64,000 nt of DNA from Branchiostoma floridae (taxonomy: Eukaryota > Chordata > Leptocardii > Amphioxiformes > Branchiostomatidae): the NCBI RefSeq assembly GCF_000003815.2, contig NC_049980.1, positions 24,299,808 to 24,363,807 on the forward strand, in the 5' to 3' direction. The number at the start of each line of letters is the position of its first letter. Positions within the stretch are counted from its first letter, which is position 1. The translations under genes and the position numbers were made by a program. The notes beneath the pieces were generated by a model. It did no database searches. It was not told the DNA's origin and was given only the letters and a program-made list of their open reading frames with translations. Positions 9,501 through 45,571 of this stretch are shown in pieces.

Positions 9501-12500
9501 TCTTACCTGCTGCAGAGCTGGATGCAGCTTGTGCCAGTGCAGGTGGAAAGGACCTCTGTAGCAGACCAAGCATGGAGTCCAGCATGCTCTGCAGAAGCAC
9601 CTGGATTGTCCCACTCAGGGCGTGTCCTGGGGACACCACCGAGCGCTGAGATGCTGGGGTGATGTTCTACAAACACAACAAAAGACCAGAAACAAATGTC
9701 ATCAACAACAGCTGCTGATATTGCTTAAATGTTTTGCTAAACATGTCCTGGGTTGCAAACGCAAGTTGTGTGTATTTTGAAAACGACATTTAAACATAGC
9801 ACTTAAACAACAGAGGAAGCGGCATCTACCTGCATTGCTTGGTGGAAGTCCTTTGCGCTGACATTGATGGAGCTGACATCCAGCTGCAGCTTCTCCTTGG
9901 AGGAGTAGATCTGTGGGTACCTCCTCCGCAGAGCAAACAGGGCAGCCTCAGTACACAGGGACTTCAGGTCCGCCCCACAGTAACCTGGCAAGATTTATAG
10001 TTAGTAAGGTCATATTCTGTTCTTTCAAAAGCTGATCCAATTATTCTAAACTAGAGTTCGGGGACCTCATACCTCCATGAAATATTTATTGCTTTTTTGT
10101 GGATGGTATGTATGTTTATAGTCGGCTGTATTTGAGAGTAATGGTTATAAATGTTATGGGAAAGTAGCGGTGTATTTATTTAATGACACAGAGGATGTCC
10201 ATGATCCATCTGATTAGTAATTATTAAAATGTGACACTTAATTGTGTAATGTGCGTTTAAGAGGTCGACGGCATATGGTAGCGTGGTGTTCCTTAAGCTT
10301 GATGTTTGGCATTTAAAATGTCTAAGGTTGTCAGCATTATTGAGATTCGACTATGTGCCTCAGAGCGGTGTGGTGGAAGGAAGTTGGGAAACTCAGAAAG
10401 AAGAAGGGATGTGGCCAACTTTAGTCAGATGGTGATTTGATTTTCCACCAATATGTTATAACATCAGCTGTTCACACGGTACAAAAACGAGATGCACACT
10501 TTCCTCTGACAGCCCTACACCAGCTGTAAGATGAATACTTGGCGCCAACCCCGTCTGCTAAAAAAGTACCATTCGGACAACTGTCCCTTATCGCAACGAA
10601 ATAAGAACATCTGTTGTGCCAACTGTTACAAATATTTCAAACAGTCCTAAGCAGACATAAATAAAACTACTGGGGGTTCCCCAAACAGCTGTCACCTCAC
10701 TATCTGCTTGCAGCTAAGCCCATTAACAAACACATAAAGCACGATGCTTGTACCAATATATCTCAAATATAGGGGTGATTTTTGATATTATTACATCGAT
10801 TATAACGACAGATACGGCTCCCAAGATCTCATCGATTCGACCTATTATCACACCCCACCAACACAACAAGTATGAAACCACTCCATCCAGCCGTTCTTGA
10901 GTACAGTCAAACCTGTATAAGAAGACCACTCAAGGGACCCAGCAAAAGTGGTCTTCATACATAGGTGGTCTTTATATAGAAAACAACGCGGCGGCAGTAA
11001 AGAAACTGACAAGTCAGAACATCGATAATTTATGCATGAAACGCATTTGTCTTTCTTATTATTTACAAGATATTAAATACGATGTTATATAATGCTAAAA
11101 TTACGTATACTTATGTTATTCTTCGTATTAAAAAGTATTATATTTGTAATGATATTTATAATAGATATATTATAAGAATAATTTGAAAAAGAAAAACGGT
11201 GGTAATTCGTCCGGCTTTTTGCAGCGTGCCGTGCCGGGGCTGGCATAATTTTTTCTCATACCGCGACCCTAATGTGACAACAAATATTCTGTAACTGAGG
11301 TATCAAGCAGCTGCACGCCGGCACATCGACGAACATTTCTACCCAAAACGTAATCGCTATGATCAGAAAATGTTGCAGGCTTCTTCTCAAGTTGCGGGAG
11401 TTTTGTTTTTGTGTGACATGAAAAATGCGACATTATTTTCGGGGTATATTTTGGAAACCCACGCTAACTCTCAGCACACTTTACGGCTGCATCGAAACCC
11501 AAAATTACGCTTTAGACACCATAAATTCACATATTAACACATGTTTCCACGAAAAGTTATTTGGATTATGCATTTTCAACTAGGATGGTGCTACGTAATC
11601 GTGGAAAATAGCGTTCTTTTGCGTTTTCAAACGTAAGTCTTTGAAACAAGATGGCGTCGAGCTGGCAGCAAAGTTCCCATGATGCACCGCTCCAACCAAT
11701 CAGAGCGCGAGATCGCCGGGGATTCCCCGGCATTATACATGCAGTTGTTGTTGTTTTGGTGGTTTCAACCAATCAGAGGAGCGTATATCCGACCTGCAGA
11801 CGCCGCGATTCAGAACCGCGCTGTGCAAAATACGTATTTCTCGGGAAGAACAGCGAGTCAGATGTTTTATTATGACAGAAAATGCGTTTTTTTTAGTTTA
11901 TCTTCGAAAAGCCTGGTGAAACTAAACGCTTTCATGTCTGCTCCCTGGATATAATGGCATTTTAGCCTGAGATTCTCATCACGAAGCCACCGAAAATTTG
12001 TAGAGTGAAGTGCCGATCCAGAAGTAATGAGAATGGGAGGGGGCATAATTTGTGGTAATTACGCTCATTTTTCGCCGTGAACATTAAAGTAGCGTGACAA
12101 AATCACATGCCGCGGTCGTTTTGGCAGTGTTTAGGTAACGTGCGGTCGCCTTTAGTGGTGGTCGTGGTCCCGTTGGACAGTGGTCGTCATATACAGAAAT
12201 GTTAATGCTTACGTCTATGGGAAAATTCAAGGGACCGCATTTCGGCGGTCGTAGTGGACAGTGGGTCGTTATGCACAGGTGGTCGGTAGACCAGGTTTGA
12301 CTGTAATCATCTACACAGACAGAGACACATAACAGAAAATATAACCTCCATTCCATGACATTTCATGGAGGTAACAAAGCATTAGACCTATACCAAAAGT
12401 ATGTTTACTCACGGATATAGCGACACAAAATAAGTCTCAGACTTCCTATGCATATGCTGCTAAGTAATTGCATCAATGAACTAAAAGAGCGGTAACTTAC

Positions 12501-15500
12501 CCACACACTTCTCTGCAGCTTCGCTCAGGAAGGCATCACTGAGTCGAGGTGTCCACTCTTTGGTGTGGATTCTTAGAATGCTATGCCGTGCCTGAAAACA
12601 ACAGATGATCACAACTTGTGCTTTGAAGATGACAGAGCTATTAATATACCACATCACACAGTTCAAGTGAATTCCAATAGGCAGACAATAAAATTGTGAT
12701 ATATCTGTGCTGGCTATAAGTTTTAGTTTGGAGGTACCCACCTCTTGATCGGGCAGACCAAAGAGGAACTCCCTGTCAAATCTGCCGGGTCTCCGCAGTG
12801 CAGGGTCAATGGAGTCAATACGGTTGGTTGCCCCGATCACCACGATCTCGCCGCGACTGTCCAGCCCGTCCATGAGGGCCAGCAGGGTGGACACTATAGA
12901 GGAGTGGATCTGGTCCTGTCTGCTGGACCTGACAGGTGCCAGCCCGTCAATCTCGTCAAAGAAGATGATAGAAGGCCGCATGGTGTATGCCTGAGGAGGG
13001 ACAAGATATTTTTTTCAATGCTATATCATATGGTACACACAGAGATTCTTAAAAAATGTACTGCTTACAGATAGTTTGGTTTATCCTACCATAAAAAACA
13101 AACAAGTGTATTGTACCAGAATCACAACTACTCAAGCCATTTAAAGGGACATATTTGATCATACAATTACGTTTATCAACCACATGAGTGGGAATACTAT
13201 GAAGACGATGACGTGGATAATATATCAAGGTTCAGTCTTACCTGGTCGAACAGAAGCCTGAGCTGCCTTTCTGACTCACCCACCCACTTGCTGAGGCAGT
13301 CTGCACCCTTCCTCATGAAGAATGCCACCCGCTTGTCACCCTGGCTGCACTCGTTGGCCAGGGCTCTGAGCGATAGATATGATAAGGGGAAACTTGTTTC
13401 AAAATGTCTTTAAAAGTACTGCGCTTGGGAATTACAACACGAAGTCTGTATACTGCATTTTTATAAACAAGATAATATGCAGCTTAGCCTTTTGACTGTA
13501 GGACATTCTGAAGGTTTGACTGGCAATATTCATTTTAGCTTCAAATGTACTGTTAGCTCTTACCTTGCCACCAGTGTTTTGCCTGTCCCTGGAGGCCCAT
13601 AGAACAGACAGCCACGAGGCGGGGTGATGTTGAAACGTTGGAAGACTTCGGGATAGAGGAGGGGGAAGATGACCATTTCCTTCAGGGACTGTATGTGTTT
13701 ACCCAGGCCACCTACACTGTCAAATGTTACCTGTGGAATACAGATAGGCACATTACTATGAACCATGGGCATACAACAAAATTGCAACTACAAGGGATAA
13801 GTGATTCAGGACGTGTAGCAGCCAAGGAGAGGAAAATTTCATAAGCTTAGGGACAACGGTAAGAATCATTTCTTAAGCAATGACAGTTTCAGATGACTGC
13901 TTTGTGATACTCACAGATCGATCAATGTTCATGGGATCCACATCTGCCAAGCTGGATCCGATCTTGGTCCGATCACGGATCACTCCACTGGCCACATCAT
14001 CAGGCAGCATGTTCATGGGGAGACATCTGAGGAACACAGAATCAGCAGTTTAGAAGGGGAGGAACAACATATCATTATGTGCTAAACATTGACCAGAATA
14101 CTACTAGAGACGCCTCTAGGTATCAAGCAATATGTAATAGGAGAACTCATTGACAAGTGCAGGCAAAAAAATGCACTTGTAAAGCAAGTTCTTCAAAGAC
14201 CAGTCATCATAGAATAGTATAGCAGTGTACTATCAGGACAGGAGTCTATCATAACACTAGCTATGTGCCACACCTTATCCTGGCCCTGGCCATGCTCTTA
14301 GCCTTCCTGCGCTCAAACTTCTCTTCATCATCTGACCCAGACGAGCTGGTGGAGCTGCTACGATGGAATGTATGGCGACGTCTCCTGCAAGAGCAACAAG
14401 AAAACACACCCTTTCTTTAGTGATATCTAAGACAGGTGCTGCAGTCAAAGATTTTGACATCTTCAACACTTAGTCTTCAACACGGTAGGAAACAACAGGT
14501 TTGCTGCACTTTGGGCTAACAAATATCTACTTAACAACAATATGGCAGGAATTTTAATTCCATTACTTCACGAATAAGACCAATAGATAGGAAAAAGCCT
14601 TACCTTCTTTGATATGGACTATGAGGGCTACGATGGAGTTTGTTGCTGCGTCTCTTCACTGGCGAGTCAAACATGTCCACGGCTTGCCGCTTCCGACGTA
14701 CAGGCTCATCTACAAACAAGGAAAACAGTGGCATATCATATGTTGCAAATACCCACTCAATGAGGACAATTTTCTGACAGCTTGGAGTTGACTTCATGCT
14801 TAATCAATATTATACAAACTTCAGTGCTGCAGGTCAGCCTAGCACTGAACAGCCTTACTTACCCATTGGCACCTCGAAGCGTTGTGTGATTGGCCTTTTT
14901 TTCCTGAGACTGTATGGGCGAGCTTCTTCTTCCTCCTCCTCTTCTTCCTCCTCATCCTCATCTGATGATGTGTCCTCTGACAAGAACAAATAACAATCCA
15001 TTTATCAGTAAGCAGGGCTCGAAATACTGGGTGCATGTGCACCCAGGTGCACCAAAATTGGAGCTGTGCACCCAAGTATTTTCTGTGGGTGCACAGGGTG
15101 CACCCAAATATCTTCTTGCGTCATGTATGCAAAGATGTCAAAGTATACTAGTATACATCATATTTTTGACATCTAAGTGTTAGAAAGATAATATAAATGT
15201 CTGTCATGGTACTTGTTTAAGAATTTGATAACTTGTTACTAAGTTTCATTATTAGGTTATTACTTAAATTTAAGTGGTGCACCCAAAATTTTTTTGGTGC
15301 ACCCAATTTTTTAAGCTGGGTGCACCAGTGCACCTAATCCCAAAAATGAATTTCGAGCCCTGGTAAGCCTACTTATACATATACCAAAAGTATGCTTTCA
15401 TTATTTCTTCAAAATGTACTTAGGGTGCATGTATTTTTATGAAGCTGCAGGACTTTTGGTGCCTAAATGTAAGGGTGGGTACCAATTTGGCTCATTCAGG

Positions 15501-22224: not shown

Positions 22225-23511
22225 GAAAAGAGATATTCATTATGTTATACCAATGTCCTACCATGCAATGTGTTAACAGAAGCATTTTAGATTTGCCATG
22301 ACAGCTTCCTCTGCCAGGAACCATTAGTAAAAGGCTGTATGTACACATATCAAAGTTCATGAAATTTGTCATGTTACTCTTTCAGTAAGATGTTTCTGAC
22401 ATGGGGCTGTCATCCCACATGTCAACAAAATTGTTGTTGCTACAAATGTCATATGTTGTCAGATAATCCAAAGTGCAATATTAGCAGAGCTGGCAATATA
22501 TAGAAAGGATAAGTGTTCTTGTCTGTTGTTGTAAGGTCTTAAAACCAGTCATGCAAGTGGAAAAAATGCATACTTTCTTTCTTGTGATTTCTTTCTGATA
22601 TGTCTTCCAACCATGTTTTGTACATAGTCAATTCCCATTCCCCTTTACAATTCAAAAGTGGGGAGAGCAAAGTCTGGTGCTAAAAATGTCTCTCATATTT
22701 TGCTCTTGAAAGTTATGCATTGAACCGATATTTCAAAGATATTGTAATCAATGAAGGCATTACCTCCTAATTCTTTATATTGTGTGTAGGATGTCTACTA
22801 GCAGGACTGAAGTATTTGTAGTAAAGGGGCAGTTGTAATGATTTGTATAACATTGCTGTTTAATATAGCCGTGTATGCTAAGTCATATACTAGTATGTGC
22901 ATGCACATAAGCACACCATCTTCAGAGTTCTGATGCTGTAAATAAGAACCACTGCTGCAATACTGTTATTAACAATCATGAGGTTTGTGTCCAGTTAATT
23001 CTAATGTTTTGCTTTCTGTAGATGCAAGTGCCCTGCCAAGTGAGATATAATTATTTTCACAAAGATGGTACATCTTATAGTCAGCGCAATATTCTTTTGC
23101 CTGCATGGAAAGCTTAGTCACAATATGCTGTCAATAACTGTTTCTAATTTAAGCAATTGGATATGCTCAACTGCAGTTGTACTTAAGAATCATAGTCAAT
23201 CTCTCTGACAGACTGTATGACTTGTACATTCACACTTCTGATCATTTAATGAGGCTTCAATCATGTAATACTGACAAACCTTTAGCATGCTGACTCATTT
23301 GTGGTGTGCATTAATATTGAAATGTAAAACGTAAAAGTTATTTCTTACTCCATATAGTTGGTATGTCCAAAACGCCCTTCGGCGTTTAAAATAAACAAAT
23401 TATGACAAAGTATTTTTTGACAGTACAAATGTATGAAATAAATAAAAAAAGGCTAGTTGTACATGTGTAAGGGTCATGCTTTACACTACATTCATGATTG
23501 TGTCACACTTC

Positions 23512-23517
23512 AATAAA
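23512..23517 (+). terminator. Candidate poly(A) signal of the TMEM244-like gene
   Basis: AATAAA about 1.29 kb past the stop. Two more AATAAA hexamers lie near 23438-23448. The intervening 22225-23500 shows no coding exon and is best read as 3' UTR running towards the convergent TRNAU1AP end. Confidence 0.4.
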
Positions 23518-23800
23518 GGTTTTCAACCTGGTCTGAAACCAACATGATAATGTACATACACTAAGAAAGGTACAATACTCATGCTCTGTACTGAAACATG
23601 GGGAAATGAAATATTTGATAAACTAAAGTGAGTCATACCTTAAATTATGCCAAAACACACTAGATACATGTGTAGTTACTCATGATTTAGCTTAGCTCTG
23701 TTTCAGTACAGCCTTTTAACTTCACAACAACCTAAACATTTTTCTGGATTGGGATAGTCAGGTTTAAAAACTAAGAAGAAAGAAATGCTCATCAGTGCTT

Positions 23801-26800
23801 TTACACAGGAATGGGTGATGTGACACTGTCCAGGGGCTGCCACCGTGATGCCTCCATGGCTTCATACAGCTCCTGCAGACAAACAAGAACATAATGTAAG
23901 GTGCAGGCAGTCTGTAAGGTGCACAGGTATATTTTAAAAATACAAGTGGTCCCTTGATAACTTAAACCCCTCCAATGTTGTAACTTTGCATTAGGCTAAC
24001 AATTTTTTGTAGAAGAATACTTTGTTACTCCTCAAATATAATGGGCCTTACTTATATGAAAATGATGTTTAGGTAAAGTTATATTTTATATATACTATAT
24101 ATCATGAGAATGATTGGCAGTGCATACCTCACTTCTATGCATAAACTCCTTGTTCATCTCCTCTATATTAAGTGGTGGGTTGGGGTCTGTAAGGAAGAGA
24201 ATCATGTTAATTGAGTGTGGACTTACAACTATCAACAAGCAATGAGGTTATCAGTTCAGGCCTAAGAGACAACATGTTCACTGAAATACAGGTACTGGTT
24301 AAGATCATGCTTCTCTATCCATGCCTGACCATGCCATTCTTTTCACAAATTAACGTAGCAAGCAAAACCAAACAGACAGCACTTTGGAAAAGGCAACAAA
24401 GTAACCGGCTAGCAATTTTTTGGCTTGTATCAAGTACCTTGATGACTGCTTTTATTTCATTTTTATTTCTTGAAGGGTCATTGAGATTTAAGGACAACAA
24501 GCATGTCCTGAACATGGCAAAATCCCTTTCATAGGCTTTAATGTACATGTCAACATTCATTGATGATTCTCTTACTTCTCAAACACTTTCAAATGTGAAA
24601 TGCAGGGTATCTAATTCTACAAAAACATGCTTTTTGCTCCCCTCATGTCTTAAGTGTAGGGTCATAACTATAAAACCAGCCTTGTAAATCAGAAGAAGGG
24701 TCACTGGGGCTCTTTGCTGTATACAACAAAAACAAGAGAAGTCAAACTTAGTATAGAGAATACAACCACAGATGGATGATATTTCAAGCTGTGGCATTTG
24801 GCAAAAGGTATCTGCTGCATGATTTCACTGTCATGTAGAAATGACAAAACCAAAGCTAATCACTTCTTTTAAACCAAAACCTTTCTTATTGTGGTTCCTC
24901 AAAGTCAGATATGTACAACTTCAAGAAACATAACATCTAATTTTTAAGATAGTACATTTAGTGAATCTCTTGAATACTACCTCAGGGCTCGAAATTCATT
25001 TTGGGGATTAGGTGCACTGGTGCACCCAGCTTAAAAAATTGGGTGCACCAAAAATTTTTTGGGTGCACCACTTAAATTCAAGTACAATGTCAGAAAAACC
25101 AAATAACAAACTTTGTTACATGATATCAAATTCTTAAACAAGTGCCATGACAGACATTTTTATTATCTTTCTAACACTTAGATGCCAAGAATATGATGTA
25201 TACTTTGATATCTTTACATACATAAACCCATGAAAATATTTGGGTGCACGAAAATAATTGGGTGCACAGCTCCAATTTTGGGTGCACATGCACCCAGTAT
25301 TTCGAGCCCTGTACCTTATTTGTATCGAAGTTGTGATATCAAGAAAGAATGTAAAGAAATATTTGCAAATTAATAAATGAACAGAAACTTTATCAAACGT
25401 GCTCACAAACATAGATAGAACACAAAAGACTTCTCACCTTCTACGCTGGACTCTGACTGATTGTTTGTAGGGGTGTTCTCATAGCCTTGGTTCTGGGGAA
25501 AATCAACAGTACAAATTTCAACACACTTTATCTAAACCAACTGATAGTGACACATTACAATTGTGAAACTAAAAATCTAATGTTAATGATTATGAAAACC
25601 TGAGATTTAACATTTTTGTTGTATTCATCTGAAGTGATCATGAGAACGATCCATACATGATACAGATATACATGTAGCATGAACCTTACCCAGGAGATAG
25701 ATACCTATAGCCATTGCATTGGTAGAGTAAATATAAAAGTATAAGAATACAGTTATCTGCAATACCATGTATGTAAAAGAATCCCAGACGTACCTGTGTC
25801 TGTGAATTTGGTGAGTATGATGACGTCCCATACTGGTTATAGTTGTAGTACTGTGATGACTGTGGGTAGTACTGGTTCCAGTAGTTCTGGTACTGTTGGT
25901 AGTACTGGCTGTACTGGTCATACTGTCCTCCTGCACCATGCTGCTGCTGCTGCTGCTGCTGAGTCTTGTCACGACTTAGAGAGAGAGGAAGACATCATTC
26001 TATCAGATATTAACATTTACACAAAATTAAAATATTATCTGATTCAGTTCAAACCAGTAGACAACAACAGTCTATCCTTTTTCATCTTGAAAGAAAAACA
26101 AATGACACAGATGTATACCAGTCTTTGTCCTCAAGCATTTCAAAATCAACTTCTGCCCAAGATTTTGCAAATGAATGCCCTGGTCTGACTATTTGCGCAG
26201 CAGATGTACACTCTATGTCTCACAATGTTCATGTATGTCGCCACTGAAGTTTTCAATACTGAGAACTGTATACATGTTATGTCCTGGTTTTGGCTGTACC
26301 TAAGGGGATAGGGATCACAAAACTACATGCATGCTGAAGGACTCTTCAGTTTGGAATCTAGTCTCTAGTACCCCTTAACAGATGTAGGAGGTCAGCTGTA
26401 TAAAACCAAGTGGGTTGTGATTTCTACAAACACACACAGAATATATAACAAACCTGCAAACTCTACTGCAACTGAAGAGAATATGTCTTACAACCATGAG
26501 AACTTGTGCATTTCATTGTGAAAGGTCATAAGTTGAGAGAAGGCTGATGTACTTACTTCCTGGGCGTGGCAGGGCTGACTCTGAGGGCCTTTCCCCCCAG
26601 CCCCACCGCACCCTGCATCTCAGTCAGGGCTCTCTTCTGCTCATTCTCATCTGTGAACCGCACAAACCCATAGCCTCTACAGGGGGAAACAAGTCTTCAG
26701 TTTATACCAAGTTATCTTTCCCAAGTCCTTGCATGGTAGCCACTATGAATATGTTTTTATGCAAAAAATAAATACTGGTTCTCCTACCTACATAATGTTA

Positions 26801-29800
26801 CTTTGCCTCAATACTTACAACTCATAATCTTTTCCGTATCAAAAAATGTTGAACACTTTCATCATTACAAAAATGTAATTCTTCCCTTTAATCATTTGAA
26901 ACAGTATTTTTAGGACTAATCAATGACAAACAGCAAGATAGAAGGGGGAGAGAGACATGATTAGACACTTGAACAGTGTAAGACCAGAACCAGTCCCACC
27001 TTGAGTTGCCAGCTGCATCCAGTACCACCTTGGCAGCTTTGCAGCTGGAGTATCTCCTGCCAAAGAACTCCTGCAGGGAACCATCATCGATCTCTGGGGT
27101 CAGGTCACCTACAAAGATGGAGTACTCGGGCCTACAGCCGTACAGGGATATAAAAATATACTCATGTCAAGAGTCAACCGATTTGTTAACTGTGGTTGAA
27201 GAACTGGTAACATCTCAATCAACTTAGGGGTCATTTTCTCTGAATTCTGTTTTCTCAAATGAATGAAAGTTTTACATTTACAAAGTTTTTTTTTAGTCAG
27301 ACTTATGATTAAGACATCAAACAAATATACATGTGCATGCTATGAGCCGCTTGGAAGTGTGGTGTCAAGACTAGCAGACTGCTGCCTATCTGTGTCAGGG
27401 ACCCCAGCAGCAGTATAATCAAAATGTACTGGATACTACTAGTCACTACCTGTAGCAACAAGTTGTGACTGTGTCATTTCACATCCTGAACTGAACTTCT
27501 AATCACTGAAATTGTATCAAGCCCTCCCACTTATAATGCTACACTAAAAAGTACAACAAAATGATACATAGGTAATAGCTTCTAAAGCTGGAGAAAACAC
27601 AGATGAACTGAGTGATCTTACGTGACAACATTCTCCCGTCCGTAACTTGCGTAGTTCAGCTTGAAACGTTTGGGCTGTGGGGAATAAACCTTGACATAAG
27701 AACCAAATTTGGACACTGGGTTCACCCTGACATGCTCAACCACATCAGGACTGTACACAAAACTGGCTTCAGTTCTGTTAAGATTGGGAACTGTACCAGC
27801 AACACAGGAGGTGACCTGACTCACACAGGTACTGTCAGCACAATCAGCAGCAATCAGTGAGTCCCCAGCTCCATCATCCTCACCAACTGCCTCGACACTT
27901 TCAGGCAATTCTGCATTGTGAAGTACATGTGCTGTCCCTGACCATGACTCCTCCCAGGGACAGTAACCATGATCAACAAGGCCTTGTGCCTCCTTTAGCT
28001 GAGTTTGGTACATCCCAGTTTTTACCAGACCTTGATGCACAGATTATGATCCACTGCACAGCCACTGATGCAAGTATATTATGTATATGTTGAGGTCTGG
28101 GATAAAAGAAGTCCATTTGCAGCCCAAGATATTTCATGTATAGTGTTTTCCCTAACTTGTTCTACAGGATTTGATGCAATGGCACAGCTGAATATAAAGG
28201 TATTACGACCTAGATGTATACACTACAATCCATGGCTTGACATCCTTTTGTAACATATTCTAAAATTAACAAAAGGAGCTAGCATTTGGAGGGTTGTTTG
28301 ATTCAGGAGGTTTCAAAAATAGATATATTTCCTTACACTTATTGTCTCCAAACATGTGACAAGTTTAAATTATCTAAAATGACATTGTTAACATACTAGT
28401 AGAAAAGTCATAAGCAGTCATCTTTTGTAGAAAAAATTTCTAAGAAGCATCCTCAAAGATTTGACTATTTTGAGTATAACACCAACACCCTTGACGTGGC
28501 ATGTGAAAGAAAAATAGGGTCTTACACGGTAGAATTTCTTTGTCACCTTAATCTGGGTAAATCATGGGATCAGTCATGGACACTGAACCCTGATATCACA
28601 ATGAATCGTAGTTATAGCTTTGTGTTTTGTACAGAAGCACAAGCATGACAAGAATGTGCTTTCCTTCAATAAAAGCCAGAAGCAGAAAAACTTCTTGGTG
28701 CAAATTAGATACTGGACTTTGTTGCACATCAGTGGCAGACAGCACAGGAAGACTCACATGTCCATTAGTCAGCTACAAATTGAACTGTTTGTTTCTTTGT
28801 CATGCACAGACTTTTCAAGAAGACAAATGTTACATCTGATATGAATGGAAAAAACAAACAGTTGAGTGTAGATCTCATAGGACATAGTACACTTTTGTTT
28901 GTGTTTCAGTGTATCCTAAAAAGTTTTTTTTTGAGGGAATTTTCATATATCAGTGTCATTTTAGCTTAATTGAACTTTGGAATCAAAGTTTCAAGCATAT
29001 CTTTTGAGATGTATATCTTAACTATAACTTAAACTGCATAACTTTTGGCAGTCTGTTACAGATGATTCAGTCTGTTTCTCCAGACTTTCAGCTTTGATTG
29101 AATTATGATATAACTTATCTGCATGAAGTAATTCTACCAAATACTACAATAACATGAAGATAGACACCATAATCACCATTACCATTACCAAAGGAGGAAA
29201 TCAGACAGTTTTACCTTTTTTAATTAGCAAAGTCAGCAGCAGTTGAAGTAGACAGAGAAACAAATGAGGAAGAACACCCAGTACACAAATGTCAGACTGT
29301 GCTTACCGTGTAACTACCAGGTAGCTGTTTCCCACTCAGTCTAGTCAGAGCACGTTCTGCCAACTGTTGGTCGCCGAAATCAACAAAGCAGAATCCTGCT
29401 GGCCCTCTACATGCATGTGGGGTGGGGGTTTGGGGTGGGGAACATGAAAAGATGTTACGCGTACGGAGAAGCTTACCGGGTTTGCACCAGGTAAGGGTTT
29501 CCCATTCAGCTTGGTCAGGGCCCGCTCAGCGAGGACCTGGTCACCAAAGTCCACAAAGCAGTAGCCAGCAGGGCCTCTGGAGGAGAGAAGAGGTCAACGG
29601 GACGGCTCCAAGACTTGGTAGCCACTTCAGCTTTTTGTTTCCCAAATTTTGGGGTTTGTTTCTCGGTGTGTTAAGGACCAGTTTACAGCACTGACCAAAA
29701 GCGCATGATAATTTTCATGAAAATGAGGGGTATTACTCATCATGCATGAAATGTTACTGAAGAATGGGCATGCAAAAAGCATATATGAAGACCTCTTCTC

Positions 29801-31353
29801 ACATGTAACATGCAGCACTAGTAGTTGTCATTGTCAGATCACACATTCCCAGCACAATGGTAAAGCCTAACATCTACCAATTGTAAGTAACATTGCAGGA
29901 TTTCATAAAACATCAATTGCAACTTAATTTGTGACATGGATTGTGAGCTCTTTTACAGCTGAGATAATGGAAAATAAAGTGCCTGAGTAATTTTCGACCT
30001 AAAACTGTTATAAACTACATGTATGCAATATACCCAATGTTAATAATTACAATGGTACAAACAACTGTTAAAACTACTGAAATGTATGTACTTGCAAAGC
30101 TGTTAGCTGACACTGACAGCCTCTTAGAACATCAAAATTCATATTTTTCAACAGGCAGCCTACAAACTGTTTAAACTTTAAAGTAATGTGCATGCCCAAA
30201 TGGCACTACATCTCTATCTTTACTAATTGCCAACTATTTATCTTAGCATTCTGCTAACTACCATGTTGCCAAACTTGCCATGCACAAGTGAGCAATTCGT
30301 CTTGCCATGCACCAAAAAGTATCAGCTGACATAACAGAAAAACATGATAATGCTACAGGTGTATGAAATGTTATGGCAAGGGAAATGAAGCCACAACAAA
30401 ATCATAATACTTGTTCACTTTTAATTTCATTAATGATTTTGAATTTGAGTAATTTGAGTTATATTATAAGAAGACTGTAATGGGTGTTTGCTGTCCCAAG
30501 CATGATATCCCACATAGTGACCTGACTAGTACAGAACATTACAGGACTGAGAAGACAGCACAGAGAATACATTTTGAATGTTTTGCAGCAACCTTGAGGC
30601 AACAACACTCACCCTGTTTGTCTGTTCTTGATCAGCTTGACAGAGATGATGGGCTCACCCATGGAGGCAAAGGCATTCATGATGAACGGCTCATCCATGT
30701 ATGGCTCAAGCTACAGATCGAAAAATTAAGCATGTGAAACTGAAAATCTCTTACCACATTTTTAACCAGGTCCCATAATGTGTACATAATCTTTTTTGTG
30801 TCCATCCTATGTTTCATTCTGCACACATGGTAACTTCAATATCATAATTCATTAGGATTTAATTTTTTTACCATGTTTAATGTTGGGCCTCAGAGAATGC
30901 AGGTGGCATATGCGTGCGTGTGCATGATAGCATGTTGCATAATGACCGAAACAATGACATAAAGAAGGGCTTAAATCACTTGTCTAAATCTTTGTTGCGT
31001 TACAAATTACAAAATTGTACCTAACGTTACATGGCCCATCCATAAGGTTGTCATATTTGGCCTCCTGTAGTCTCCAAATGCTCATGAATACAAAAGGAGA
31101 CAAACTGTGTCTCTGAAGCTCGTTTGTGCAGTTAATCAAGTGCTTTAATAGTGGGTGGGGTGTAACAATAAGCTACTGAACTAAGTAAGATGACCTCTTT
31201 TTGTTTGATTTGACACAGCCTAGCCCCCCTCCCACTTGAATCATTTGTTTTTACAGCAGGCAATTATCAAATTTTATCTCTGTGGGAAAACTGGGCACTA
31301 AGAAAACGTTACCCGGTGACCATACTTACATCTCCCATCCACAGACTCGTCAT
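23801..31353 (-). CDS. TRNAU1AP: tRNA selenocysteine 1-associated protein 1 (SECp43), with mutually exclusive exons 3a/3b
   Basis: Exons: 31353-31330, 30710-30613, 29576-29477 (3a) or 29406-29307 (3b), 27674-27622, 27131-27000, 26676-26557, 25974-25794, 25492-25438, 24186-24128, 23872-23801. Phases agree throughout; either isoform is 894 nt (297 aa; human 287). RRM1 has RNP2 LWMGDL (4-9) and RNP1 around PAGYCFVDF (43-51). RRM2 has RNP2 SIFVGDL (96-102) and RNP1 RGYGFVRF (136-143). A Gln/Tyr-rich tail follows, beginning with seven Q (181-187), and the C-terminus matches the SECp43 ending (ELYEAM..WQPLD). The family binds tRNA-Sec and acts with SEPSECS and the selenoprotein synthesis machinery, including 2'-O-methylation of the wobble base. 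It is divergently paired with PAK1IP1. Confidence 0.95.
24983..25311. mobile_element. hAT-type MITE, 5-bp target duplication, in TRNAU1AP intron
   Basis: 329 bp with CAGGGCTCGAAAT / ATTTCGAGCCCTG ends and the perfect duplication TACCT (24978-24982, 25312-25316). It is rich in GGTGCACC motifs. The sequence is the reverse-complement relative of the 15013-15362 copy. Confidence 0.88.
27675..28040 (-). other. In-frame open extension upstream of TRNAU1AP exon 4 (possible alternative exon)
   Basis: Reading upstream of the exon that starts at 27674, the same frame stays open for about 122 codons without a stop. Composition is more GC-rich and protein-like than neighbouring introns (acidic, then Val/Tyr/Pro-rich). 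A phase-0 acceptor within this stretch would insert up to about 120 residues between RRM1 and RRM2. I cannot point to a strong acceptor at its upstream end, so it may be chance. Confidence 0.3.
29307..29406 (-). CDS. TRNAU1AP: TRNAU1AP alternative exon 3b (distal copy)
   Basis: 100 nt, preceded by TAG and followed by GTAAGC, phase 2 in and phase 0 out, exactly like exon 3a. It encodes the RNP1 strand and following helix of RRM1. It differs from 3a by eight substitutions in 33 residues (Y>F in RNP1, then V>Q, K>R, N>S, P>Q, A>S, N>Y, P>T in order) while keeping [19 protein letters not shown]. Many silent differences show it is not a recent duplicate. Confidence 0.85.
29419..29440 (+). promoter_or_regulatory. 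G-quadruplex-type tract in the 70-nt intron between exons 3b and 3a
   Basis: Four G-runs (4, 5, 4 and 4 G) separated by T, TTT and T on the plus strand. On the transcribed (minus) RNA this is a C-rich tract just upstream of the exon 3b acceptor, so it doubles as the polypyrimidine-like tract and could bind poly(C)-binding proteins. Confidence 0.5.
29477..29576 (-). CDS. TRNAU1AP: TRNAU1AP alternative exon 3a (proximal copy)
   Basis: 100 nt between an AG acceptor (after CTCCTCC) and GTAAGC. It encodes [20 protein letters not shown] and onward, ending GANP, which joins the next exon (PKRFKLNY). It resembles the human RRM1 more than 3b does (Y in RNP1, NGKPLPGA). Splicing 3a to 3b would shift frame and reach a stop after eight codons. 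Confidence 0.9.
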
Positions 31354-31669
31354 GATGGCCGTTTTGTCCTCAAATGTGCCTCATAAACTCAAAAGTTTAC
31401 CTCGTGCACGCGGACAGGCGTCCCAAAAAGCATTCAGTTGTGCACATGGAATGATGACGTCATGTGAAATAGTTGATTTTATTAAAATGCTTTACTAAGC
31501 TCACAAAGCTATACTAACGTTCAAAACTTAATCATATTTTCATTTGAACGATAAAATATGTTAGGATTAGACCTCGAAAAGCTTTATCTGGGGTGAAAAT
31601 GTGAAGCACAGCAAGCACACCTTTTGATGACGTCACGAGGAGAGCACATGTCAGACGACAGAACCCAGA
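31354..31669. promoter_or_regulatory. Bidirectional promoter of TRNAU1AP and PAK1IP1 with two CRE palindromes
   Basis: Only 316 bp separate the two ATG codons, which point away from each other. Two perfect TGACGTCA sites (ATF/CREB type) are at 31455-31462 and 31628-31635, the second about 35 bp before the PAK1IP1 ATG. No clear TATA box. One gene serves selenoprotein translation and the other ribosome assembly, so shared growth control is plausible (inference). Confidence 0.7.
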
Positions 31670-34600
31670 ATGGAGGTTGTGGTGGGGTGCTACGAGCAGA
31701 TGTTGCTGGGGTTCCGACTGGTGGAGGGGGGAGAGGTGTGTTGTACAGGCGTCTAGTGGAGAAAGATTATAATGTGTAGAACCCAAAGGATAAGAGTGTT
31801 GGGCCTCTTCCCGTTTGGGAATTCAAGGGATGTTTGTACTTGTAGTCTGAAAGGACGCCCTCCCCTTCTCAGTTTATGCATGTTCAAGCATGCAGCACTT
31901 GCCTCTATCTAGTACTAGTAATAAATAAAACAACTTTGATAGTGCTGTATAGCATGCAGAGTCACTAATGTTGAATTTTTTATCACGACACTCTGGAGAG
32001 TGCATCAGTAATAAACAAAGGTGCATCTGATGATAAGAAAAAATTGTTGACTTTTTAATAGTCATGCTTTTTGCCTTTTCTCTGCTTGTGTTACCTGAAC
32101 TAAATGCATGGAGTTATTATATAAATACTACAGAGACAGGAGAATAAGATTATGAAGTTTCTGAATGCAGTGGTCAACAATACAGATATTGATTAGTATG
32201 TCAGTCATCAACAGATGCACCTTTTCTTAGGAATGTAAGCTGGAGCCAACGTTCACAGATAACTCCCACACCGGCTGTGTGAAGGCGGTTGCCTCAGGTG
32301 GACATGTTCTGGCTTCAGGCAGCACGGATGAAACCATCCACCTCTACAATATGGAGACTAGAACAGAGCTGGGAACCCTGCTGCAACATGATGGTGGGTA
32401 CAGAATTTATCAGCCTAACTCTACTCTACTCTACTCTTTAATCTAAAGAGTAGAAATCTACTCAACTATTTAATTTAAAAAGTACTAGTAGAGTAGAGTT
32501 CTTTTGGCGCAGGTAGGAACGTCCAATTCCAATCAAGCTTCTAGCAGCTCTTCCAAGTTGGTCAGGTCCCTACATGTATCTCTTGGGGAAGAGGCCCAAT
32601 CAGCATCCGATGTTCAGCTAGAGATTGCATCACACCCATGTGTATCATCCAAGGAGATAAAGTGAAGGTGGATGTAACTGCAAAGGCCATTTAGAAAATT
32701 TTACTGTTATATCTGAAAATGCTGAAGACCAGACTTTGCAATTATAATAGTTTGATTTATTTTAAAATCTTCAGGGTGGTCCTTTCAGTTAAGTTAATAG
32801 TATGAACTTCAATCTGCCACCTGACGCTAGATGACATAATAGCCATATAGCAAAAAACTGTAGGTGTAGCTGATGTGAATGTATGGAAACTTAGGTATTA
32901 ACATATGAGCAGGGAGGTTTCTCTGTGCCACACATGATCAGCCATTATTGATAGAGTAGGGTCGGGTAAAGTACATCTCTTTGGCCAAGTTAAAGTCCTT
33001 TTGTTCAACTTTATGCCACTTATCACCTGCATCCTCAATGTTTTTTCCAGGCTCGATCACCTGTCTGCAGTTCTATGACTCGTCTCACATGCTGAGTGGT
33101 GCAGAGGACGGGACCATGTGTGTGTGGCAGACTGGGACATGGGAGTGTCTCAAGTCCATGAGAGGACACAAGTCAGTAACATGACAAAATATTACACTCC
33201 TTGTCCTCCTTTTTCATCCATTGATTCATCCCAAAAGTACTCCTCCAGAAACTTGAATTGCTTTGTAATTTTACCTTTTCGGCAACTTGAGTAGTCTGAG
33301 GTCACTTGGAACAAAAGTAAATGGTTTCGATAATTCTTGTTTGTTGCCGTTAATCAGTAAGGAAAAGTCAACTTTGTAAATATGCTGTTTTCTTGCAGAG
33401 GTGGGATAAATAGCTTATCTGTACATCCATCAGGCAAGCTGGCACTTTCTGTGGGCAAGGACAAAACCATCAGGTGGGTTGTGACATTGCTGAAAATATT
33501 TCGATTTTGGATTTGGAATAGTTATTAACATGTACATTTGTGTATTATACAGTTCTTGATGGTAATTCAAATGTGCTAACATTACGACATATTCTGAAAT
33601 ATTCGCTGTCTCTGTACCTAGAACATGGAATTTAGTGACTGGTCGGCCTGCATACACAACCAACATAAAGCAGGGTCAGTATTCATATCAATATTTTTTG
33701 GAAGAATGTGTTGTTGATTATGAGTAAGCAGTAAGTATATTTTTGGTATATGTAGTTTCAGAGACTGATCAGGACTGCCGTAACAAAGGAGTTCTTTACC
33801 AAACCACGTCATTACAAAATGGGGACTGGCAAAGGGATAAAAACATGCCTTTTAATTGTTTACATTTCTTTTCCTTTCAAGTTTTAAAAGTAGAAGCTGA
33901 ACTTCATTGATTTTTGTGTATGTTTTATAGTTCTATTTGAACCATATTGGTACCAAATGAATGTGTTAATTAGCCAGTGTTGGAGTCTGAACTGCTGATT
34001 TTATTGATCATGTTACCTTTAATTTGCCTAACAGTTGCAGACCTGATCCACTGGTCACCTAAGGGAGACATGTATGCTGTTGTTACTGGCAACAAGATCA
34101 ATGTGTACAGACTTGAGGTAACAGAACACAATGCAAATTGTATTGACACTACTACTGAGACAGCAGTACAGATCTTGCAATAATGATAGAGTAGCTGCAA
34201 TACCTGTAAGAGCAGATAGGTGGTGTTGTCACTACAGCTTCTAGACAGCAAATTTTGACCATTTGACAAGATTAAGTCATAATGGTTTAATGACCCATTT
34301 TGTAATTCATGACATGTGAATATCTTAGCAAAGTTCTTCACATGTCAATCTTGTTTTCATTATTTTGCCTTTTATGTTACAAATTGCAACATAAGAACTC
34401 CTTCTGAAAAGTTCTGGCATGAAGGTACACATGATAAATTGTTAATACATATTAAGTGTACATAATGTTGATGCTGTATTTCTTTGTTATTGCAGACTGC
34501 TGGACTCAAATGTAGTTTGGATGCTGGAAGAAGAGTGCTGACAATGGCGTACATTACAGTAAGTTGTTCTAAAAAAAATGCAAGAGGAATTTAACAATCA

Positions 34601-37600
34601 AGAAATGTAAAGATTTATTGAAAATGTTACGATTTTGCTGTGATCTCTTCGCTGCAAAGTTAAAACCAACACAAAAATGCTTATTCTGTCATCTGCCTGC
34701 CTAACCCCTTGTTTTAATTGAAAACTTAAAACCATGACAAACAATCCATGTATAGTACATGTAAATCCATTTACAGTACGGTAATGTTATTACAGTTCTC
34801 AATTGCAATCACTCCTCTTACTCTTACTCTTAGTTCCAGTTTTACTGTAATAGAAGTTGTTACTTCCTCCCAGTATCTGAGTCAAGTTGGCAGAACCCAG
34901 CCTGATTGGAATAGGGAATGCTGAAAAAGTATTACACTTGCGACCAGAGCACTGACGCATCATTTGTCATCACATTCCTAATCATGATTATAAGTAGTTT
35001 ATAGTCCCAGAGGTCTACATTAAGTGTATTAATGTTCAAGGTTAATAATTCATTTCAGCAGTTCTTATTGGTATGGGAAATACCTCAGAAAAGATGGATG
35101 TACATTGTATTGTAATAAACGTACCGATTTCCTTGCTCTATTTGTTACAGAACTCAGCTCTGGCAGTGGCTGGAGAAGACAGAAATATTCAGATCCTGAA
35201 TGTTGAGACTGGAACATGCACATTTGACTTCTCAGCTCATGAGAACAGGTGGGCTATCTGCTGAATGTACTCCTGACAATCTTCCATGGTCTTTTCAACA
35301 TCTTACAGTTTACCAGATATAACATGTCTGATTCTGGCAAAGGTTAACATTGCAGACATCTCCATATTGGCAGATTAACAGTTGGATTCTGTTATGCTTT
35401 TGGGATCATACAGAATTCTCTTGTACCCTACTCATTTTAAAGTGGACCTTCAAGTCTAGTACATGGTGTAATCAAAGTGTTCTGTCCATTGTTTAGAATC
35501 AAGAGTCTGGTATGTGTTAGAGACCACAGAAGTGATGCAGGAGAAACAGATCTCCTGATGGTCAGCATATCCAGTGATGGCTACATTAAAGTCTGGGCAC
35601 TCAAAACAGATCAGGTGAGTACCTGTATGGTTACCACAAAGTGTTGCTTACATTTTGATGTGGTGTTAATGGCACTTGGTAGAGTTCATTAGGCTGCAAA
35701 TGACTTAGCCCGTCCCTGTGAGTATTGATATGGTGATGAAGTTAGAATATGACTGTAAATTTCCTGACAATATCATCTGTCACAAACTATGTTTTAACCT
35801 TCAACAACCCATGGTTGCCACAGTGCTCAGAATCTGTACTCACACACTTGGTAAGGTAGAATGCTGGAGGTTAACAACAACAAATAGGTCTCTATTTTGC
35901 ATGTATGGTGATGTCATATCTCATAACACTCCATGACAAGTCTGCATGTCCCTGCCAATGTTCCACACATCCTAACTTGTAGTTGGTACGTTCTGCTCAG
36001 TTGTTCCAGTGACCTTCCCTCCACAATAGCATGTAGAAAATTGTGAAATGATGATGAGTTAAGTACTGATATTCTCTTGTGTAGGCATTCCTTTATGGTG
36101 TATCAGTTGGCATTGCTCTTAAGACCTCAGGGTGCATGTGTGTCAAATAAAGTAGGCCATCTCAAATTGGTTTAATGCTAAATATCTGACAAAGGATGTT
36201 AGATTCATGCACATGTCATATTCTCATGAATAAAATGTTCAGGATCAGAGTTTAAGGTTGGGCATTGTCTAAAAGTAGGTCACATTGACCTTGAAGATGG
36301 AAACTAAGTTGTTGAACGTCACAATTTACTGAAATTTTGACAAGGTACATGTACATGGGTGTTATTCATCTTTGAGCTTTTATTTTACCTAGCATATATA
36401 GAGAATTTAGAAGGAAGATGATGGGAAGTAAATTCAATTAGGGCTTTATTTTCTGTATCAATGGGCTATGAAATGAAGTTTTGTGTAGACTAAGAAATAA
36501 CCAGAAGAAATTATCAACAACAAAATACAAAAAATGTATCTTAGTATACTTCATGAGTTGATATAAGTATTTGGCACTGGTAAGCGTCCAAATTTATCTG
36601 CAATTTTGCTGTTTTATTCCTCGAAGGCCAATTCAATATGTTCTAATGGGCTTATTCAGAGCATCAGGATTGTATTCCACTGTTTACATAGCCACCTGTA
36701 GTAGTGAGACATCACTTCAGATGTGGAGGTGACCGTAAAGTGGAACTCTGAAACACAAATGATGATGGCATCCTCCCACCTTGTCTAGCAGCCTTGTGTG
36801 TTGCCACAAGCATTGAACTAGCTGGTAATCATGAGAAGAAATGAAAAATGTTTCACGTGGTACACTCATAGAAAACAATCAGTAAGAATTACTTTTGTTG
36901 ACATTTGTAGTACTATTGAGGTGATTTGTGTGATTGAAAGCAATCCAATATGTTCAATTGGACTTGATAAGTGCACCAGCGGGCCAGCCCATTCTTTGCA
37001 TCGTGAAGTCTGTGCTGGTGCTAAACGTCACTTGAAATCCAAAGATGACCAAGAAAATGGAGCACTGAACCACAAATGATGCTGGCATTCTTCCAGCTAA
37101 TCTTCCAGTCCATGTGTAACAGTCGTCATCATCGTTACATGGCCCCAAATCTACAGCAAAAAGTGTGTCAAACTTGCTTCTCATCAAGACGACCCTCCCA
37201 TGATGGTTGGCATTCATGGTGTTGTTAACAGCATCTTGGGGTCATAATAGAGCTGGGACAAAATGAAGTCACCAGGGAGTAATGATCAACAGTCTGGCTT
37301 ATGAGCATCAACGTTCAGAAAAATGCCAAAGGGTCTTTTCTTCACTTGACATAGAAGCTAAATATCATGTGACAACACTATGAAATGTGATATTTATGGT
37401 AATGTGGCATTTCTCACAGAGGTTTCTAATCGTTGTGGTCTCTAGCTGTTAACAACTTCTACTCTTACTCAGTGATCAAATGTTTTGAATCTGCATGACG
37501 TGCACAATAGTTTACTTTGATAACATGTGCACACTGTATTACATCTTTGCTTGATGAAGAAGCTAAACATGTCACAACACCATGAGATGTGGCATTTATG

Positions 37601-38476
37601 GTAATGTGGCATTTCTCACAGACTGAGTTTTTAATCATTGTGGTCTCCAAGTGTCACTGTTAACAAATTCTACTCTTACTCAGTACTGTTATGAGTTTGC
37701 CTTGATCACATTTATAAGGTGAATCATATGTCTTAATGTGGCCACAAAATAAGGATTCACCCATTACAGAGTATAGTTGTCCCATACAGATGGCACTCTA
37801 ATGGAGGTTTTTCATGTGATAATGAGTAATGTTCAGTTTACTCCAGAGCTGTCCTAAAATTTGAACACCTCTTTCTTGGGCCATAGTCTGCCTAAGAATA
37901 AAGTCATACACTCATAGAAACTTATTCAGAACTTTATCTTCAAAATGACTTCATTGATGGAGGTCATAATGCATTGATTCTCAATGTGGATAAAGGTCTC
38001 TTCTATTTTCCCCAGCTGGAGAAAACACCCACCCTTGTTGCACAGCACAATACCACAGCACGGCTGACAGCCCTGGCTATTGTAACTACTCAGTCTGCAG
38101 AACCAAAACTTTCCACAACAAAAACAGCACAGGAGAAAAGAAAACTTCCAGAAGAAAAAGGTCAGTTCTAGTTTTTCCAGTCGTACCTAGAAATGAATTT
38201 GCATTGGTCATGGTACATGTAGGTACATGTATGTAATGTTTAAGCAAAGTGGGTGAAATCATATTATAGTAGCACATGACTTGGGCTTTACATTCTAGAC
38301 ACTTTTATTGCTCTCTTACATACCGGTATATATATATATATATATGTCTTTGATTGAAAGACAAGTATTTAAGAATTCATATCTTTCCCAACACAGAAGC
38401 AGAGCAGAAGACAGAGAAGAGAAAAAATGTGAAGGAGAAGAAAGGAGGAAAGAAGAAACTTAAGATAAAGAACTAG
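31670..38476 (+). CDS. PAK1IP1: p21-activated protein kinase-interacting protein 1-like (WD40, ribosome biogenesis), 11 exons
   Basis: Exons 31670-31735, 32231-32393, 33051-33171, 33399-33473, 33622-33674, 34035-34117, 34496-34558, 35151-35248, 35497-35614, 38016-38160, 38397-38476; all in phase, 1065 nt, 354 aa (human 392). The N-terminus MEVVVGCYEQMLLGF matches the family. WD40 signatures: LASGSTDETIHLYNMET, LSGAEDGTMCVWQT, HPSGKLALSVGKDKTIRTWN, LAVAGEDRNIQILN, SISSDGYIKVWALK. The tail is Lys/Glu-rich (KEKKGGKKKLK), a likely nucleolar signal. The family (yeast Mak11) works in the nucleolus in 60S subunit assembly; the PAK1-inhibiting role is described in mammals. Confidence 0.95.
32417..32500. 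repeat. Small inverted repeat in PAK1IP1 intron 2
   Basis: AACTCTACTCTACT at 32417-32430 is matched by its inverse AGTAGAGTAGAGTT at 32487-32500, with further CTACT/AGTAG pairs between. A stem of about 14 bp with a roughly 55-nt interior; probably a decayed simple repeat or fold-back. Confidence 0.5.
36640..37110. repeat. Diverged tandem duplication in PAK1IP1 intron 9
   Basis: The series CAAT-CAATATGTTC-A-TGG...GGA..CACTGAA-CACAAATGATG-TGGCAT-CT-CCA occurs at about 36640-36795 and again, diverged, at about 36945-37110. Ancestral unit about 300 bp. No coding frame is shared. Confidence 0.45.
37353..37682. repeat. Second tandem duplication in PAK1IP1 intron 9 (about 205-bp offset)
   Basis: AGAAGCTAAA..CATG, ATTTATGGTAATGTGGCATT, TCTCACAGA, TTGTGGTCTC and TTCTACTCTTACTCAGT recur in order at about 37353-37475 and 37558-37682. 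Confidence 0.6.
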
Positions 38477-44515: not shown

Positions 44516-45571
44516 AATGCCTAGGTTACACATAGCCGAATTTGGCTCCCGACTCTCTCCCGACTATGGTTTAGGAGTGATTCGGGAGCTAGTCGGCTGT
44601 AGTCGGCTGGCGTTCGGCTGAGTCGGCTGGCGTTCGGCTGGCGTTCGGCTGAGTCGGCTGGTGTTCGGCTACCTCAGCCGAATGTTTTGAAATGTTCAAC
44701 ACATTCGGCTCTGAACGGCAACTCTGGAATGGGTCGGTTGGTGATCGGCTGGTGTTCGGCACGGTCGGCTAGTGTTCGGTTGGTGTTCGGGAGTAAGTCA
44801 GCAGTCAAATTAAATCTTAACCACGCCATAAACATTGCTGATTTACTCCCAGCTTGTTTCCAACTTACCAATGATTCGCACCAAGACCGTAGACAAATCT
44901 CTGCTAACTCATTTCCAAGCAAAAAAGACTATTGCCAGGACGTAGACGAATCACCCCCGAACTTCACACGACCGCCATCCAGCCCAAAACAAAAAAGAAC
45001 CATAAATGCCTCACTGGAGCTATATGTGATCCAAATTTGATCTCTTGGTGATGTTTACAAAATAGAAGAAAGAATAATCTTGATTAAAAACGAAAATGAG
45101 CACTCTTTTGAAAATCGCTGATTATGTCTATTTCAAGTCGAGAGAGGGTCGGCAATCGGTTGGGGATCAGTCAGGAGTGATTCGGCAGTCTGCAGTTAGA
45201 GGTCGGGATGGTTGGTGATAGGTTAGTCAGCATTTGGGACACAGTCGGGAGTAAGTCATTTACCGGTCGGGAGATGTTCGGGACCTGTTCGGCGCTAAAA
45301 AAAATAGGCGTGGCCTAAACTGGTCAGACTACTCCCGAACTACTGCCGACTTGGGTCGGCTAAGAGTCGGCTAACTTCTATAAGTTATCCTCATTGTTCT
45401 CTGGTTTTATTTATTTTTTGTGTTCCACATGTCCTTTCAGTAATATTGCTCTATGTATGATTGTTACATGTGTATCTTGTATTTGAAAAATCAATAAAAA
45501 GATTGAAAAAAAAAAAAAAAGAGTCGGCTAGTGTTCGGGAGCCAAAGTCGGCTATGTGTAACCTAGGCATA
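44516..45571. mobile_element. Terminal-inverted-repeat element with TCGGCT motif arrays, middle layer
   Basis: Ends (A/T)ATGCCTAGGTTACACATAGCCGA in inverted orientation, flanked by the 7-bp duplication AAGCAGT (44509-44515, 45572-45578), possibly 8 bp with one mismatch. The interior is largely made of AGTCGGCT and GTTCGGCT/GTTCGGGA repeats on both sides. Superfamily uncertain; the duplication length would suit hAT or P-like elements. Confidence 0.8.
45374..45520 (+). mobile_element. Short poly(A)-tailed retroposed insert, inner layer
   Basis: 147 bp ending with AATAAA (45493-45498) and an A-tail, flanked by the direct repeat AAGAGTCGGCTA (45362-45373, 45519-45530). The target lies inside the TCGGCT array of the 44516-45571 element, so it inserted last. 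Confidence 0.8.

Follow-up and report, generated by a model that had tools for sequence, protein, structure and literature searches.

The window analysed here, a stretch of 64,000 nucleotides from the amphioxus Branchiostoma floridae, carries on its minus strand a TRNAU1AP/SECp43 gene in which one exon of RRM1 seems to stand twice in a row. The question raised by this locus is whether the two copies, called 3a and 3b, serve as mutually exclusive exons, and what the two resulting proteins would then do. An earlier note on this DNA had answered that each transcript needs exactly one copy, and that the two proteins would differ in their RNA-contact surfaces, perhaps for different tRNA-Sec forms. 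We re-examine these claims by means of exon anatomy, divergence between the copies, neutral simulation and genome searches, and compare the locus with published systems, which are cited from the available portions of the articles.

The gene and its repeated exon

The gene is a single locus in the genome. Its model was built by hand and is a prediction from the sequence alone; the main path has ten exons (1a, 2, 3a or 3b, and 4-10), runs from 31353 to 23801 and gives a protein of 297 residues (Table 1). This predicted protein has two RRMs and the Trnau1ap C-terminal domain, as members of the TRNAU1AP/SECp43 family do: in a Pfam search PF17654 scores 95.3 bits (cutoff 27) and RRM_1 matches two stretches. 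The best solved matches are 2div and 2dhg, and Nam8 ranks among the best solved relatives.

Table 1. Features of the TRNAU1AP locus, in window coordinates
Feature	Coordinates	Strand	Basis and remarks
Exon 1a, start codon and RNP2 (MTSLWMGD)	31330..31353	-	gene model; CpG observed/expected 0.98 around and upstream
Exon 1b (MTTLWMGH), a further copy of exon 1 preceded by a homologous leader	31031..31054	-	in intron 1; alignment score 23.4
Exon 2, 98 nt, common upstream partner of 3a and 3b	30613..30710	-	gene model
Exon 3a, 100 nt, ancestral-like copy	29477..29576	-	translation, splice sites
Intron between 3a and 3b, 70 nt	29407..29476	-	only yUnAy match: A at +32
C-run CCCCACCCCAAACCCCCACCCC in the 3b pyrimidine tract	29419..29440	-	17 C of 22
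Exon 3b, 100 nt, derived copy	29307..29406	-	translation, splice sites
Exon 4, 53 nt, common downstream partner of 3a and 3b	27622..27674	-	gene model
Exons 5-10: RRM2, Tyr/Gln-rich region, Trnau1ap C-terminal domain, stop	23801..27131	-	gene model, Pfam

The two 100-nt exons were found where the earlier note had placed them, in the same phases: both enter after exon 2 and end at a codon boundary. Each has an AG acceptor and a GTAAGC donor, in line with the good splice sites claimed. Their translations are identical at 25 of the 33 residues and differ at the other eight, and many of the nucleotide changes are silent, with 31 of 100 bases differing (identity 69/100). The frame consequences were also largely as described. 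Joining 3a to 3b shifts the frame and adds eight new residues, with a stop at the ninth codon. Leaving out both copies likewise gives five residues and then a stop, but this part of the claim holds only for skipping of exon 3 by itself, since transcripts that skip exons 2 and 3 (198 nt) or exons 3 and 4 (153 nt) stay in frame. In-frame skipping of exons is reported for the mouse gene (PMC4456167).

The pair thus has the anatomy of mutually exclusive exons: adjacent and internal, equal in length and phase, bounded by GT-AG sites, similar in translation, and non-productive when included together or skipped together. The two exons are read as mutually exclusive, and the view that each transcript takes exactly one copy is borne out at the level of anatomy and frame enforcement. 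The same features support the prediction of two TRNAU1AP protein isoforms.

Exon 1 has a second copy as well. Exon 1b and its leader give an alignment score of 23.4, a value that none of 1000 shuffles and none of 434 control pieces attained. The score of the leader alone, taken without exon 1, is reached by 16 of 300 shuffles, so it is the leader and the exon together that carry the claim. Among the 127,954 octamers in the six frames of the window, only the MTSLWMGD and MTTLWMGH copies match at six or more residues, and the 100-nt stretch around exon 1b occurs once in the genome, which means that it is not a dispersed repeat. The donor of exon 1b, CAT/GTAACG, is weak (rank 74 of 614), and CpG observed/expected is 0.17 here versus 0.98 at exon 1a; both values speak more for a relic than for a first exon in use. 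Read instead as an internal exon that follows the nearest AG, 1b would have 34 nt and shift the frame. Judged by its donor and its CpG content, exon 1b is probably a relic or rarely used. Its use would change RNP2, so that RRM1 would have two versions of each of its RNP motifs.

Several other observations were made in the window. A stop-free stretch of 123 codons at 27675-28043 (-) runs directly into exon 4 in its frame. Runs as long occur in 5 of 2000 shuffles of 450 nt and in 27 of 1000 shuffles of the whole intron, its GC content by codon position is 0.63/0.43/0.39, and its overall GC is 0.49 versus 0.35 in the rest of the intron. It has one copy in the genome, and its translation has no Pfam match above the cutoff and no solved relative. 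It may serve as an optional 5' extension of exon 4, or as a second N-terminus, one without RRM1. Inside intron 3, at 28097 (-), there is a good-looking acceptor, TTCTTTTATCCCAG; joined to exon 3, it gives five codons and then a stop, as read by eye. The gene stands head-to-head with a WD40-repeat gene at 32231-33184 (+), which presumably resembles PAK1IP1, and a CpG-rich promoter region is possibly common to both. A RING-finger stretch lies at 2-928 (+) and an AAA ATPase stretch at 12481-13014 (-). ARAGORN places a 90-base tRNA-Ala (ggc) at 44593-44682 (+); no Rfam family is found in the window at the curated threshold, so this tRNA is probably false.

Selection and polarity of the two copies

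The comparison of dN/dS type that the earlier note had named as a check comes out in favour of two coding exons. By NG86 counts, pS between the copies is 0.75, which is saturated, and pN is 0.17, so that pN/pS is about 0.22; the contrast has a Fisher P of 9e-8, on rounded counts. As silent sites are saturated and replacement sites are not, both 3a and 3b have long been selected as coding sequence. We also simulated a pair in which 3a is fully constrained and 3b evolves neutrally, with 2000 runs per setting. At matched divergence (18.6 third-position differences, compared to the observed 19 of 33), the neutral copy differs on average at 22.5 residues and acquires a stop codon in a fraction of 0.61 of the runs. 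Eight or fewer residue differences were reached in 0 of 2000 runs at this divergence, by which a neutral second copy is rejected, and in 1 of 2000 runs at a lower divergence of 12.7 third-position differences. Coding selection on both copies is thus indicated by the pS/pN contrast and by the simulation. The silent divergence alone would suggest that the pair is old and conserved.

The 270-nt stretch with both exons occurs once in the genome (513,431,437 bases in 431 contigs). The flanks of 3a and 3b have no significant similarity to each other, since 60 and 165 of 300 shuffles score as high. A repeat scan of the whole window gave seven direct-repeat families of at least 50 nt with copies within 5 kb, and the 3a/3b pair is the only one with copies of more than 100 nt. 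Two pairs of 55-nt direct repeats were noted at 37366-37622 and 36737-37108 (+), with spacings of 202 and 317 nt and identities of 91% and 78%. We also looked for a retrocopy that would have frozen one splice form, and none was seen among the ten protein matches in the genome: nine are the exons of this TRNAU1AP gene itself, and the tenth is a 42% match of RRM2 type on another contig.

The solved SECp43 RRM1 (2div) gives the pair a direction. Exon 3a shares 22 of 33 residues with it and exon 3b shares 16; at the eight differing sites, 2div carries the 3a residue six times, the 3b residue never and another residue twice. In the Nam8 alignments, read by eye, the 3a residue is found at four of the eight sites (Tyr5, Lys22, Asn24 and Pro33) and the 3b residue at none. 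Because both relatives side with 3a, we take 3a to keep the old form and 3b to be the derived one, a polarity read from these sequence comparisons.

To see what the derived copy changes, we assume the usual RRM topology, by which exon 3 would encode the RNP1 strand, helix 2 and the loop of RRM1. Under this assumption, the change of Tyr5 to Phe falls at position 3 of RNP1, a stacking residue that stays aromatic, while V14Q, K22R, N24S, P27Q, A31S, N32Y and P33T are placed in helix 2 and the loop between helix 2 and strand 4. With seven of the eight changes there, the change would lie mostly off the canonical RNA face. Different RNA-contact surfaces, as earlier proposed, would hence come down to one conservative Tyr-to-Phe replacement in RNP1, the other seven changes lying elsewhere. 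Both versions are scored as RRM_1 domains, with 42.5 bits for 3a and 40.8 bits for 3b (cutoff 20.7).

Choice between the copies

Splice sites were scored with a frequency table of the human consensus, which was not fitted to this genome. On this scale the donors of 3a (CCG/GTAAGC) and 3b (ACG/GTAAGC) rank 4 and 5 among the 614 GT sites of the gene region. The acceptors differ more. That of 3a has 13 pyrimidines in 15 positions, six of them T, while that of 3b has 10 in 15 (positions -20 to -6) with a single T; it is the T count that is the lowest among the ten acceptors, whereas the pyrimidine total is not the lowest in the gene.

The pyrimidine tract of 3b contains the only 22-mer with at least 17 C on either strand of the window, and this exact 22-mer occurs once in the whole genome. 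Its complement, GGGGTGGGGGTTTGGGGTGGGG at 29419-29440 (+), is on the template strand and is the only stringent G-quadruplex motif in the window, with 0 in 60 first-order Markov windows; a lenient quadruplex pattern is found at two places in the window, compared to eight in the 60 Markov windows. A looser C-run pattern has 1590 forward and 1679 reverse matches genome-wide, many of the listed places being overlapping G homopolymers, so that such C-run and quadruplex motifs are uncommon in the genome and not unique. A template-strand quadruplex could slow the polymerase.

In mammals, C-rich pyrimidine tracts are intrinsically weaker than U-rich ones, and alphaCP/PCBP proteins activate exons that have them (PMC4797308). 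The C-rich and U-poor tract of 3b resembles such PCBP-dependent tracts by sequence. We propose that 3a, with its U/C-rich acceptor, would be the default choice and that 3b, with its C-run and almost no U, would have to be assisted by another factor, most likely one of the poly(C)-binding proteins of the PCBP/hnRNP K type.

The second element that could enforce the choice is the intron between the copies. At 70 nt it compares with 255-1632 nt for the remaining nine introns on the 1a path. In its sole yUnAy match, the A is 31 nt away from the 3a donor and 38 nt away from the acceptor; this branch point is guessed from the motif, and a looser match, GTAAC, is still nearer to the 3a donor. Steric exclusion of exons is known from alpha-tropomyosin, as it is from OGDH. 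A limit of about 50 nt between donor and branch point has been proposed, and the OGDH branch points lie 25-41 nt from the donor (PMC7969005, PMC5740500). A large group of human introns measures 66-85 nt (PMC4463651), so a length of 70 nt alone does not forbid splicing of 3a to 3b. With the candidate branch point about 31 nt from the 3a donor, the intron may nevertheless be too tight for this joining, and mRNAs with both copies or with neither would be removed by nonsense-mediated decay. It is important to note that both the steric limit and the PCBP rule derive from vertebrate cells.

Another option considered was a switch by base pairing, which is not supported: the fold of the whole region has a z-score of -1.33, and 8 of 100 shuffles fold as well. 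There are 28 inverted-repeat pairs in 23500-33000, and two short ones touch exon 3a (17 nt at 82% and 18 nt at 78%). Among the 25 of the 28 pairs that were listed, none touches exon 3b or the 70-nt intron.

Function, rival readings and known systems

What the two isoforms would do depends on what the protein does. In HEK293T cells, human TRNAU1AP binds the introns that follow alternative exons and favours inclusion of these exons, mostly via its C-terminal domain, and it clusters at the 5' splice site downstream of the dependent exons (PMC11389820); a binding motif was not found named in the available text of that article. TRNAU1AP is described as the human reciprocal-best-hit ortholog of Nam8, a U1 snRNP protein (PMC7169965).

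The tandem duplication of an exon in TRNAU1AP, with the copies spliced mutually exclusively to give two predicted proteins that differ in part of RRM1, is in our judgement the probable explanation of the 3a/3b pair. It has to be weighed against a reading in which 3b is mainly a poison switch, the joined 3a-3b mRNA being frame-shifted and destroyed so that the protein limits its own level. The stop that the joining brings in at codon nine would serve this purpose, PRPF39 has a poison exon that human TRNAU1AP drives (PMC11389820), and the authors of the mouse study raise autoregulation of the Secp43 mRNA (PMC4456167). However, a pure poison exon needs no conserved frame, and 3b keeps 25 of 33 residues while its silent sites are saturated; joining should also be inefficient across a 70-nt intron whose candidate branch point is so close to the donor. 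As the main role of 3b the poison switch is therefore quite unlikely, although it may be a secondary one. That 3b is a dying copy and 3a alone is used is very unlikely. All six changes that SECp43 polarises fall on the 3b side and the 3b acceptor is poor in U, but a pN/pS of about 0.22 at saturated pS, the 22.5 residue changes and frequent stops expected of a neutral copy, and two intact splice sites, with the donor ranking fifth, speak against decay. Amphioxus genomes are highly heterozygous, which would favour an artefact of haplotypes. A collapsed haplotype or an assembly error is nevertheless rejected, with practically no probability left to it, by copies that are 69% identical, dissimilar flanks, saturated silent sites and a single occurrence of the stretch in the 513 Mb assembly.

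A different kind of alternative, compatible with exclusive splicing, is that the isoforms discriminate between tRNA-Sec forms, as the earlier note had suggested, or between selenium states. SECp43 is recovered together with tRNA-Sec, and selenoproteins were affected when the protein was knocked down in cultured cells (both as reported in PMC4456167); essential functions in selenocysteine biosynthesis are still credited to TRNAU1AP in PMC7169965. On the other hand, SECp43 is kept in the insects examined, with or without selenoproteins, the exception being A. gambiae, where no good candidate was found and an assembly error is suspected; the authors deduce a function apart from selenoproteins and leave room for one in selenoproteins (PMC2500217). 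Mice without Secp43 exons 3 and 4 keep their selenoproteins and look normal, from which it was concluded that selenoprotein synthesis in hepatocytes and neurons does not require Secp43, with the reservation that the in-frame deletion may leave function (PMC4456167). By frame and position, these mouse exons would be the counterparts of exons 3 and 4 here, and the lack of a phenotype means that differences in RRM1 may matter little. Together with the human splicing data, which fit better (PMC11389820), these observations disfavour the tRNA-Sec reading, to which we attach very little probability.

All in all, two forms of a splicing factor are a better reading of the isoforms than two tRNA-Sec readers. 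TRNAU1AP would act here as a splicing factor of the Nam8/U1 type, and the 3b form would have a changed helix 2 and a changed loop between helix 2 and strand 4 in RRM1. This would alter partner contacts or the fine RNA preference downstream of 5' splice sites, and not the choice of tRNA-Sec. If both isoforms are made, a splicing factor whose role in vertebrates is just emerging exists in two versions in this animal, and the 3a/3b exchange provided by nature would tell which surface of RRM1 is important in the TRNAU1AP/Nam8 family.

A more speculative extension, which is unlikely to be right as a whole, is that of a splicing factor with its own switch, made up of the RRM1 exon pair, the 70-nt intron and the C-run with its quadruplex. 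PCBPs, polymerase pausing and perhaps TRNAU1AP itself would choose between the copies, and the two forms would act on different 5' splice sites. A U-rich self-activation element 3' of the 3b donor was considered and dismissed as not special (30 T in 70 positions, against 16-34 for the other exons). A Nam8-like self-activation would favour U downstream of this donor, and the ordinary U content found there counts against it.

It remains to compare the locus with known systems. We found no report of a duplicated exclusive exon in TRNAU1AP/SECp43 in the open-access literature, although a database may list both exons; PMC4244043 names SECp43 and the words "mutually exclusive", but its available text does not connect the two. 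Human TRNAU1AP and yeast Nam8 (chains 2div and 5zwn) belong to the same family as the gene here, and no mention of a second copy of the exon was found in the available portions of PMC11389820 and PMC7169965; the mouse gene is described with nine exons (PMC4456167). The PCBP/alphaCP-dependent cassette exons share the C-rich acceptor tract, with the dependence shown in mammals and predicted here (PMC4797308). Exons 4a and 4b of OGDH are likewise separated by a short intron, and exclusion is enforced there by branch points that lie less than about 50 nt from the donor upstream; these were mapped by experiment, whereas the branch point in TRNAU1AP is only guessed. OGDH is, however, a metabolic enzyme, and its exons have pyrimidine mega-tracts under PUF60 and TIA-1 rather than a C-run (PMC7969005).

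The closest parallel is the pair of exons 3 and Ab of vertebrate U2AF1, which gives U2AF35a and U2AF35b (PMC5224494). There too, an exon of a splicing factor is duplicated at equal length, 67 nt in the RRM-like UHM, one copy has less favourable splicing signals, the versions differ at seven residues, and inclusion of both or neither leads to stops and nonsense-mediated decay. The U2AF1 differences fall in RNP2, a disordered stretch and helix 2, while those of TRNAU1AP fall in RNP1, helix 2 and the following loop. Exon Ab is repressed via its branch point and pyrimidine tract together with an upstream stem-loop (PMC5224494), whereas here the very short intron is the main candidate. The kind of arrangement is thus known, and TRNAU1AP is another gene that carries the U2AF1-like design. 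If the two isoforms are real, a further intron-recognition factor with a duplicated exclusive RRM exon would join U2AF1, which would suggest that such factors are prone to diversify by exclusive exons. Should the gene also prove to have its own switch, the U2AF1 design would have arisen a second time independently, and at the opposite end of the intron.
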